A stretch of 64,000 bases of DNA from Nitrospira sp. (lineage in GTDB: Bacteria > Nitrospirota > Nitrospiria > Nitrospirales > Nitrospiraceae): contig CP126122.1 in assembly GCA_030123565.1 (NCBI GenBank), forward strand, positions 1,995,001-2,059,000. The letters are read 5' to 3'. Below the pieces are notes generated by a model. The model was given only the letters and a program-made list of their open reading frames with translations. It was not told the DNA's origin and ran no database searches. The translations under genes were made by a program, and so were the position numbers. Shown here one piece after another: positions 46,764 to 54,224 of the stretch (the stretch's first letter is position 1; each line of letters begins with the position of its first letter).

Positions 46764-47665
46764 AGGGTCAGGTCTTGTAATCACACATTCGCCTGCTCGG
46801 CCTGCTTCAAGCGACGGCTGACCGTAGCGGCATGGACCCCCAAATGGTCTGCAATCTCGGCGAGCCGATACCCATAGTCCCGATAGGCCCTGTAAATGAG
46901 CTGCGCCGGCTCCCCGTTCCGCTGAAACAGCGCACGCAACGACGGCCGCTGTGCCTGCGTCTGCCGACGGGGAATGTCCCGGATCACTCGATTGGGCTGG
47001 TGTTGCGCCACAAAATCCTCGGAGCCCAGATAAATCTGTCCCGTAAGCTGCTCCCATGGCCGCGGCCCCCCACGCCCCTCGGCCACAAAGCTCCGATAAC
47101 GCTCTCGAGCCGGCCCAACCCGCGCCCCAAATTGCCCAAGAATCCAGTCGGTCGTCAGCCACTCTGGGGCTCTCGTCTCACCGACCGTCTCCCGATAGCT
47201 ACTCCAGACCCACTGCCGGGGATGCGGCACCAGCTTGGCCCGGACCGGATTCAGCACCACATAGCGGCACAGTTCCAGCAGATGCACCTCTTTTTCGACA
47301 AGAATCGCGGTGAAGCGTCCCTGGAAAAGATGCCCGACCCGGTCATGTCGCCGGTTGTACGCCTGCGTATAGCGGCCATTCAACTGGCGCATGCCGAGGG
47401 AGAGATTGGGTTGCGGCGTTTCGATGAGGAGATGATAGTGGTTATCCATCAGGCAATAGGCATGACAGAGCCACCAATATCGATCGACGACGTGGGCGAG
47501 CAGGGACAGAAACTGCGACCGATCGCGGTCGTCCACCACGATGTTCTGCCGGGCATTGCCCCGACTCGTGACATGATAGACGGCACCGGGAAATTCAAGA
47601 CGAAGCGGACGCGCCATGAGAGGGAGTCTATGCCTTCACGATGTGAGATTGCAAGACCTGACCCT
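46764..47665 (-). mobile_element. complete REP-associated tyrosine transposase element (about 900 bp)
   Basis: The element is bounded by AGGGTCAGGTCTTGTAAT at 46764 and the matching complementary sequence ending at 47665 (one or two differences). The transposase gene at 46781-47617 fills it. The same ends occur alone at 45248, 45491 and about 48900, so the family has moved repeatedly in this region. Target duplications are not evident. Confidence 0.85.
46781..47617 (-). CDS. REP-associated tyrosine transposase (Y1 family)
   Basis: A 278-residue single-strand transposase. It opens with the typical RPLRLEFPGAVYHVTSRGNA. The metal-binding HUH is LMDNHYHLLIETP. The nucleophilic tyrosine is probably in MRQLNGRYTQAYNRRH. 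The carboxy end (YRLAEIADHLGVHAATVSRR) is a helix-turn-helix. These enzymes mobilise REP palindromes. The gene is intact, so the element may still be active. The carboxy end reaches the left terminal sequence at 46764. Confidence 0.93.
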   Translation of the reverse strand: MARPLRLEFPGAVYHVTSRGNARQNIVVDDRDRSQFLSLLAHVVDRYWWLCHAYCLMDNHYHLLIETPQPNLSLGMRQLNGRYTQAYNRRHDRVGHLFQGRFTAILVEKEVHLLELCRYVVLNPVRAKLVPHPRQWVWSSYRETVGETRAPEWLTTDWILGQFGARVGPARERYRSFVAEGRGGPRPWEQLTGQIYLGSEDFVAQHQPNRVIRDIPRRQTQAQRPSLRALFQRNGEPAQLIYRAYRDYGYRLAEIADHLGVHAATVSRRLKQAEQANV

Positions 47666-52666: not shown

Positions 52667-52872
52667 CGGTCTGCGACGATCCGTCGCCTGCCGCCCGTCA
52701 TCGCATCAATGGTTCGTGATCACTCCCAGTCCTATTCGAGTTGCGGCAGCGCAACAGCCCCGCTCCTGCCTGGAAATGCTTGTCGTTTGAATCAAGAAGT
52801 TGTATGGTGCCTCGGACCGCCGGCGACAAGGTCGGCGCGGGGCATGAATTACCACACACAAGGAGGTTTCTG

Positions 52873-53148
52873 ATGCCGAAACAACCAAGCGGGCGTGGAT
52901 CTGCGAAGATCGGTGCAGCGGCGGGGGCGATCAAGAAGAAATTGAAGGGCGTCAAGATCATCGACTGGCATGAGCTCGGCACCCCGCATCCGGATGTGAT
53001 CTTCGGTACGGTACAGACGGGCTTGTCCAACTTCAAGGCCAATGTCGCCGCACTGACGAAACTGAAGGAGTTGCGCGACCTGAATATTTTGATCCACGGC
53101 ATTCCGCGGCCTGACATCGCCCAGATCAAGTTCACGCTGCGGGGCTAG
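52873..53148 (+). CDS. small protein next to a radical SAM enzyme, function unknown
   Basis: A 91-residue protein with no cysteine. A basic N-terminus (GAIKKKLKG) precedes a conserved-looking core: IIDWHELGTPHPDVIFGTVQ, TGLSNFKANVAALTKLKELR and DLNILIHGIPRPDIAQIKFT. AGGAGG seven bases ahead of ATG 52873 makes translation certain. It ends eight bases before the radical SAM gene at 53157, so the two are probably one unit. It may be an accessory subunit, a substrate protein or a peptide precursor; the size and order suggest a folded domain more than a leader peptide. Confidence 0.72.
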   Translation: MPKQPSGRGSAKIGAAAGAIKKKLKGVKIIDWHELGTPHPDVIFGTVQTGLSNFKANVAALTKLKELRDLNILIHGIPRPDIAQIKFTLRG

Positions 53149-53156
53149 GTCCTTTC

Positions 53157-54224
53157 ATGCAAGGACCGGCCGGACAATACCCCACGTTACAAGTGCACCC
53201 CGGCAGACGTTGCAACCTGCAATGCCTGCATTGCTATTCCGACTCCGGGCCGGCGGTGAGCGAACAATTGGATATCGAGGTGCTGCGTGGGGTCGTGGCC
53301 GATGCGGCAACGATCGGGTACCGAGTCCTGTCCGTGTCGGGCGGAGAGCCGCTGTTGTACCCTGCGCTGGGAGAATTGCTTCACATCTCGCATGCCGCAG
53401 GACTGGCCACCACCGTCACGACGAACGGTATGTTGCTCGATCGACGCCAGTTGGACATTTTAGCGGCTGATTGCGACCTCGTCGCAATCAGCCTGGACGG
53501 TGTGCCGGAGTCGCATGCCTTCATGCGGGATTCCCCTCGCGCATTCGACGACATGTGCTCCCGGTTGGAAGGGTTGCGTTCATCCCGCATTCCGTTCGGC
53601 TTCATCTTCACCCTCACGTTTCATAACGCACACGAGCTGGATTGGGTCGCCCGATTCGCGGTCGAGCAAGGCGCCGCATTGCTGCAACTTCATCCGCTCG
53701 AACCGGTCGGTAGGGCCACGCGCACGCTGAACGGATCGTTGCCGGATGGGGAGGAACATGCGGCGGCCCTGTTCGAAGCCGTTCGGATTCGCGAATTGTA
53801 CCAAGGTGTCATGGATGTGCAGATCGACCTCGCCACGGTCCCGGCACTGCTCGAACATCCCACCCGCGTTTTCGTACGAGAGGCCGCGTTGTGCGGCGAC
53901 CAGACCGTTGCAGACGTCGTCGCTCCCTTGGTCGTGGAAACCAGCGGCCTGGTCTCGCCGCTGCAATACGGATTTCCACGCGCCTGGTCCTGGGGCACCA
54001 TCAAGGACAGGCCGTTGCCGGACTTGGCCGCTTCATGGCTGTCTCGTGACTATGCCGCATTCTTGACGCTGTGCCGTTTCGTCTATGAGCAAGCCGTGGC
54101 CAATGACGATGAACCGGTGTTGAACTGGTACCAGCAGGTCCATGCCGCTGCCGCACGGTTTTCGCCGCAGCAGGTTCGCGACGTGATGATGCAGACCTGT
54201 TTCGGCAAGGGACTCGAGACCTAG
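53157..54224 (+). CDS. radical SAM protein with SPASM-like tail
   Basis: A 355-residue radical SAM enzyme. The cluster motif is CNLQCLHCYSDSGPAV, followed by the GGE motif SVSGGEPLLYPALGELL and TTNGMLLDR. The end part has AALCGDQTVADVVAPLVVET and a late CRFVYEQ and TCFGKGL, which could ligate an auxiliary cluster. Similar proteins modify peptides, tungsten/molybdenum cofactors or haem. The small protein eight bases upstream is its likely partner. There is no PqqD-like gene in view. Confidence 0.85.
   Translation: MQGPAGQYPTLQVHPGRRCNLQCLHCYSDSGPAVSEQLDIEVLRGVVADAATIGYRVLSVSGGEPLLYPALGELLHISHAAGLATTVTTNGMLLDRRQLDILAADCDLVAISLDGVPESHAFMRDSPRAFDDMCSRLEGLRSSRIPFGFIFTLTFHNAHELDWVARFAVEQGAALLQLHPLEPVGRATRTLNGSLPDGEEHAAALFEAVRIRELYQGVMDVQIDLATVPALLEHPTRVFVREAALCGDQTVADVVAPLVVETSGLVSPLQYGFPRAWSWGTIKDRPLPDLAASWLSRDYAAFLTLCRFVYEQAVANDDEPVLNWYQQVHAAAARFSPQQVRDVMMQTCFGKGLET

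Follow-up and report, generated by a model that had tools for sequence, protein, structure and literature searches.

The window analyzed here, a 64,000-nt stretch of the Nitrospira sp. contig CP126122.1, contains two adjacent genes, one for a 91-residue protein and one for a radical SAM (rSAM) enzyme, that by sequence comparison constitute a real, co-inherited modification-type pair. The pair appears to be of an uncatalogued rSAM maturase-substrate kind, outside any named class. Maturase and substrate would probably make up a system of just these two genes: the enzyme would dock onto an RGSxKL element of its small partner and modify the GxP turn or turns of the latter. The features of the locus, in window coordinates, are as follows.

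52860-52866, + strand: Shine-Dalgarno sequence AAGGAGG of the small gene (from the sequence; also in other Nitrospira copies)
52873-53148, + strand: small protein, 91 aa, proposed substrate (ORF, leave-Nitrospirota-out profile, dN/dS)
52894-52911, + strand: RGSAKI (residues 8-13), the RGSxKL element of the N-terminus, proposed to serve in recognition (motif counts, alignments)
52978-52995, + strand: GTPHPD, the first GxPxPD motif, residues 36-41, predicted turn of beta-hairpin 1 (alignment, AlphaFold2)
53098-53115, + strand: GIPRPD, the second GxPxPD motif, residues 76-81, predicted turn of beta-hairpin 2 (alignment, AlphaFold2)
53137-53145, + strand: C-terminal LRG of the small protein (one of the recurrent -[R/G]G ends of the family)
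53157-54224, + strand: rSAM enzyme of 355 aa, the proposed maturase (Pfam, AlphaFold2, fold matches)
53211-53234, + strand: CxxxCxxC (CNLQCLHC, residues 19-26), site of the SAM-binding [4Fe-4S] cluster (Cys in 35/35 aligned sequences)
53862-54074, + strand: C-terminal SPASM-like region (residues 236-306), in which auxiliary-cluster Cys are not conserved (Cys columns in 35 sequences)

The excellent ribosome-binding site and the eight-base gap reported in the first-pass annotation were both confirmed: AAGGAGG lies six bases from the ATG of the small gene, the stop codon of which (53146-53148) is separated by 8 nt from the rSAM ORF, and both the Shine-Dalgarno sequence and the tight spacing of the two genes are kept in other Nitrospira copies. 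The pair is preceded by NfeD and SPFH/Band 7 genes and followed by genes for a CHASE3-PAS histidine kinase and a LuxR-type response regulator. G141, the closest relative, is the only other copy in this context. The rest of the Nitrospirota copies have different surroundings, and no flanking gene that was tested accompanies the pair. An IS200-like (Y1) transposase gene of the REP-associated type is located about 5 kb upstream (46781-47617, - strand). The hairpin GGTCCTT-TCATGC-AAGGACC at 53148-53167, with the rSAM start codon inside its loop, was rejected as a meaningful element, its folding energy being ordinary (z=-0.99) and its conservation stopping at G141. No riboswitch or other Rfam RNA was found at the locus.

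The genus of the window is represented by 29 genomes, 11 of which carry the small protein and 12 the rSAM. All 11 genomes with the small protein have the rSAM adjacent to it and its CxxxCxxC intact. In the twelfth rSAM genome, G258, the small gene is gone together with the rSAM N-terminus, including CxxxCxxC; the residual rSAM (L041:8000-9660) contains two internal stops, and the loss abuts a histidine-kinase-like stretch. Judging from these remnants, both members of the pair were lost together in G258. A member of another family of the same order (G264) has the pair as well, its rSAM being about 80% and its small protein about 70% identical. Thus, in a search of homologs for co-occurrence, as proposed in the first-pass annotation, the two genes were neighbors in all other Nitrospirota genomes that have an intact rSAM of the family. 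In Nitrospira, purifying selection acts strongly on both genes: the median pairwise dN/dS is 0.035 (small gene) and 0.065 (rSAM gene), with a maximum over the two of 0.16 (55 pairs each), and the Nitrospira small protein is strongly conserved over its entire length.

Scanning of the rSAM alignment against 84,980 species genomes identified relatives in Acidobacteria, Actinobacteria, Cyanobacteria, Proteobacteria, Planctomycetes, and Chlorobi (taxon names as in the records, mostly of metagenome-assembled genomes), and searches around some of these relatives brought in further members, mainly from the family to which a Rubrivivax genome belongs. The relatives are 28-96% identical to the window enzyme, and a small ORF is located directly upstream of the rSAM in about 36 of the 37 intact ones, covering at least seven phyla including Nitrospirota. 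The exception is L056 (Rubrivivax), in which the rSAM is present and no small partner was found by tblastn in the locus or by profile search of the genome; the assignment of the partner in L088, where the GxP motif is loose, is weak. The family is rare and patchy in the sampled groups, with 2/243, 9/250, 1/95, 1/246, 1/76, and 3/260 genomes, counts that include the center genome of each search and, among the three of the last group, one representative of a sister clade (L108). The two genes move jointly between unrelated gene contexts: no gene besides the pair is common to the loci, and no peptidase, transporter, RRE, protease, or exporter is shared by them. The distances between the small proteins correlate with those between the rSAM enzymes (Mantel r=0.89 overall and 0.65 when only 13 distant members are compared, p=0.0002). 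The suggestion that a small protein beside an rSAM enzyme makes a peptide-modification-type pair is supported by this co-inheritance across phyla. Chance adjacency was ruled out by the whole-genome profile search, the leave-out profile, and the motif counts given below, as well as by the distance correlation.

The small protein gave no match on plasmids or phages, and viral contigs held nothing relevant to the pair. Plasmid carriage was considered for the rSAM and rejected, since the sole plasmid match (31%) belongs to the sister clade, which has its own, different small protein. This clade comprises L108, from an Acidobacteriaceae-family genome, and L109:5563-7089, from the Mycolicibacterium plasmid pCBMA213_1; its enzymes keep extra cysteines, its upstream small protein is FTVNIEPASLKKIVESGRLTEF..., and this is apparently another uncatalogued pair.

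When a leave-out profile made of nine non-Nitrospirota partners was run on all six-frame ORFs of the window, the small ORF of the pair scored E=1.1e-11 and the runner-up 2.6. The family profile A5 yielded at most one match per genome over 26 whole genomes, each beside the rSAM, and also recovered five 'type B' partners (Rubrivivax family) that are outside the profile (E from 5e-5 to 1e-3). On these profile matches, the small proteins are one family with common ancestry. The family is uncatalogued as far as the databases go: the small protein matches no Pfam or NCBIfam family, which includes no match to PqqD/RRE models there, and has no meaningful sequence match in PDB. The possibility that it belongs to an already characterized unrelated family, named at the outset as a potential refutation, thus found no support.

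Most partners are proteins of 90-140 residues with an N-terminal R-G-S-x-K-L element followed by one or two [W/F]-x-x-G-[I/T/Q]-P-x-P-D motifs. Among 18 distant partners, GS..[LM] is present in 15 vs. a shuffle mean of 1.1, [FWIL]x(0-2)G[ITQVKLM]P in 17 vs. 2.5, and both together in 15 vs. 0.15; the motifs were read off the same sequences, which makes this comparison descriptive and not independent, the leave-out profile being the cleaner test. RGSxKL is the most conserved feature of the small proteins across phyla, being absent from the partners in L080, L088, and L107. At the opposite end, 8 of 20 partners terminate in RG or GG, often as -[LVI][R/G]G, and such ends also follow the divergent tails of the type-B partners. 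Conserved residues at the C-terminus, for which a search had been recommended, were found in part: the -[R/G]G end recurs, but of all core-like signals the GxPxPD turn motif is the strongest. In the Gemmataceae partner (L053:1142-1594), RGSEKL is preceded by a Tat-like N-terminus (SRREAAQWLAAGGVAAGVLGVAGAAGAQ); if the start codon is right, the folded, modified protein would seem to be exported.

In two cyanobacteria and one proteobacterium (L050, L057, and L080), the partner is a peptide of 69-89 residues, the leader of which terminates in GG and the core of which contains FPVGIPVG repeats, RGIPAD, or PFPYGIPAD; the cyanobacterial peptide of L050 is PFPVGIPVGVPV...PFPVGIPVGIPVGI. The GG leader is confined to these three partners. 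In L050, from a Chroococcidiopsidaceae cyanobacterium, the pair is adjoined by a Nif11-leader precursor (Pfam Nif11 E=1.7e-8) carrying PLYG and PMYG motifs and by a second rSAM, and this region (L050:11187-12900) is likely a spliceotide-type locus.

The existence of GG-leader relatives, the usual RiPP layout of an rSAM with a small ORF, and the recurrent C-terminal -[R/G]G would fit a classical secreted RiPP throughout the family, in which case the Nitrospira protein would be a long leader with a cleaved and exported C-terminal core. We consider this improbable for the Nitrospira protein, as it has no GG leader cleavage site and is under strong purifying selection instead of having a variable core, no protease or exporter is common to the loci, and the motif-bearing hairpins are spread in the AlphaFold2 model over the whole folded domain.

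This domain was modeled with a mean pLDDT of 80 and consists of a helix (residues 9-23), two strands (27-35 and 42-50), a second helix (54-62), and two more strands (67-75 and 82-90). The Nitrospira small protein thus looks like a stable alpha-beta-beta-alpha-beta-beta domain, and GTPHPD (36-41) and GIPRPD (76-81) are predicted to form the turns of its two beta-hairpins. The description of the small protein as lacking Cys and looking folded holds in both respects, with neither Cys nor Tyr in the 91-aa translation and a fold predicted by AlphaFold2. The fold search with this model retrieved no structural relative, only the common alpha-beta-beta-alpha-beta-beta arrangement. The same arrangement occurs in the circularly permuted ferredoxin-like periplasmic domains of GspL and PilO, the match to PilO having a Z near the level of unrelated folds (Z 8.7, rmsd 3.8 over 89, 12% identity); this likeness is one of arrangement only and implies no functional link.

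A folded small protein could also be a partner subunit or chaperone, i.e., a scaffold presenting some other substrate or a stabilizer of the enzyme, the true substrate being encoded elsewhere. The predicted fold, the strong whole-length conservation in Nitrospira, and the single copy beside the enzyme wherever the small protein is found agree with such a role, whereas the short leader-plus-core peptides with repeated or single GIP in L050, L057, and L080 are unlikely folded subunits, no third common gene was found as a candidate substrate, and the cross-phylum constraint peaks at turn residues with no obvious interface. We therefore regard a subunit as rather unlikely, and favor a substrate because the folded partners share the N-terminal element and the GxP motif with the leader-plus-core peptides. 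The earlier suggestion of 'a partner subunit or non-leader substrate' is retained here for the folded substrate and loses weight for the subunit, and 'non-leader' was half right, as RGSxKL would probably play the leader role.

The enzyme of the pair has the Pfam Radical_SAM domain (E=6.8e-20) and was modeled with high confidence (AlphaFold2 pLDDT 92.7, pTM 0.90). Peptide or protein maturases predominate among its nearest solved folds, namely SkfB (Z 26.0, rmsd 3.7 over 274, 19% identity), SuiB (Z 24.2, rmsd 3.2 over 291), and anSME (Z 21.9, rmsd 4.0 over 298), with BlsE also among them (Z 23.2, rmsd 3.5 over 280). In the AlphaFold2 model, residues 1-339 align to SkfB and 9-335 to SuiB, which corresponds to a SPASM-like C-terminal fold, and the sequence pattern of the tail, G-x-V-x-P...LGN...L..W, is SPASM-like too. 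The SPASM-like tail noticed in the first-pass annotation is therefore supported by fold and pattern, but not by the cluster-binding cysteines, which are unconserved. Only CxxxCxxC is invariant among the 35 aligned rSAM sequences; Cys at columns 236 and 241 is kept only in the sister clade L108/L109, Cys at column 246 occurs only in this clade, in L107, and in the Nitrospirota clade with L048, and Cys306 is present in 27 of the 35 sequences. The sister clade keeps all three of the cysteines at 236, 241, and 246, of which the family has lost at least two. We infer that the window rSAM family has a SPASM-like scaffold without auxiliary clusters.

All NCBIfam equivalogs matched by the rSAM score far below their cut-offs and cover the core only, the best being NirJ2 (92.4 bits vs. 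a cut-off of 500) and NirJ (85.4 vs. 515); the viperin model NF038283 reaches 59 bits vs. 180 and covers residues 14-118. A defense role, examined with PADLOC, was rejected, as it produced only generic rSAM-core matches to viperin models. These best NCBIfam matches, the pVip models matching the rSAM core, and the place of BlsE among the top folds could point to a small-molecule or cofactor enzyme (NirJ/heme-d1-, BlsE- or viperin-like) that shares an operon with an unrelated small protein. Such an assignment is very improbable: the NirJ2 and viperin scores are as low as stated and confined to the core, and the persistence of the pair across phyla and contexts, with co-varying distances, is not expected of an unrelated neighbor, so that co-inheritance largely refutes it.

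For the maturase-substrate system, we infer that the small protein is the substrate, the turn the modified site, and RGSxKL the docking element. The rSAM enzyme (53157-54224) would recognize its small partner (52873-53148) mainly via the N-terminal RGSxKL element, and the 5'-deoxyadenosyl radical generated at the single [4Fe-4S] cluster would then modify one or both G-[I/T/Q]-P-x-P-D turns. The Nitrospira product would probably be a stable, folded, modified protein, and that of the cyanobacterial relatives would be a classical leader-cleaved RiPP. A C-H change at Gly, Pro, or the residue that separates them, requiring no auxiliary electron acceptor, e.g., Calpha epimerization, is a candidate chemistry that we hold possible rather than probable, and we lean weakly toward it over an oxidative thioether or C-C crosslink. 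Oxidative crosslinks are weakly disfavored because the auxiliary clusters are missing, and epimerization is only a lean because Cys306, a possible hydrogen donor in most members, is absent in others. Several observations speak against this system: the predicted folded domain is unusual for an rSAM substrate; the loci, unlike most RiPP clusters, share no peptidase, transporter, or RRE; and L056 has no recognizable small partner anywhere in its genome, the L088 motif is loose, and three partners are missing RGSxKL. A wider proposal, that the family represents a new class of rSAM post-translational modification, with auxiliary-cluster-free SPASM-like enzymes modifying the G-[I/T/Q]-P-x-P-D hairpin turns of a small folded protein as well as leader-type RiPP precursors in cyanobacteria, appears plausible, and we place it slightly short of probable.

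No description of the family was found in Pfam, NCBIfam, or the open literature searched, and subscription surveys of rSAM enzymes and small ORFs could hold it as an unnamed cluster; work on rSAM/small-ORF co-occurrence (SPECO) is cited in PMC11002830. The pair defines an uncatalogued putative enzyme-substrate family that crosses phyla with a minimal two-gene layout. The range of this family, which around a single conserved motif includes both short leader/core peptides and folded domains, could show how peptide-modifying enzymes reach folded proteins, and its enzymes could show what a SPASM-type maturase does after the loss of its auxiliary clusters. A new modification class, if true, would link RiPP biosynthesis and the maturation of functional proteins in one enzyme family.

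Several known systems resemble the window pair in part. BlsE, DesII, and viperin also function without auxiliary clusters, being single-cluster rSAM enzymes with a fold related to that of the window enzyme; unlike the latter, they lack a small protein partner, and their substrates are small molecules or nucleotides. The epipeptide epimerase EpeE/YydG (Z 20.8, rmsd 4.5 over 287 to the rSAM model) has the same two-gene core layout of a small substrate and an rSAM. EpeE relies on a donor Cys, whereas the window family has no invariant Cys outside CxxxCxxC, and the titles of the EpeE structure entries indicate more than one [4Fe-4S] cluster, unlike the single one proposed for the window enzyme. 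Spliceotides are known from PlpX, with excision of Xaa-Tyr-Gly (PMC11002830). In contrast to these, the window small protein contains no XYG motif, having no Tyr, and no RRE gene is adjacent to it. There is also a likeness in architecture to SkfB, SuiB, CteB, PqqE, and ChlB, each of which combines, as here, an rSAM core and a SPASM-like C-terminal domain with a neighboring small ORF, in the window that of the proposed substrate. The window enzyme differs from these SPASM/twitch RiPP maturases in its unconserved auxiliary-cluster Cys and in scoring far below every NCBIfam maturase cut-off; their substrates are short leader-plus-core peptides, whereas the partners in the window family are mostly proteins of the larger size given above.
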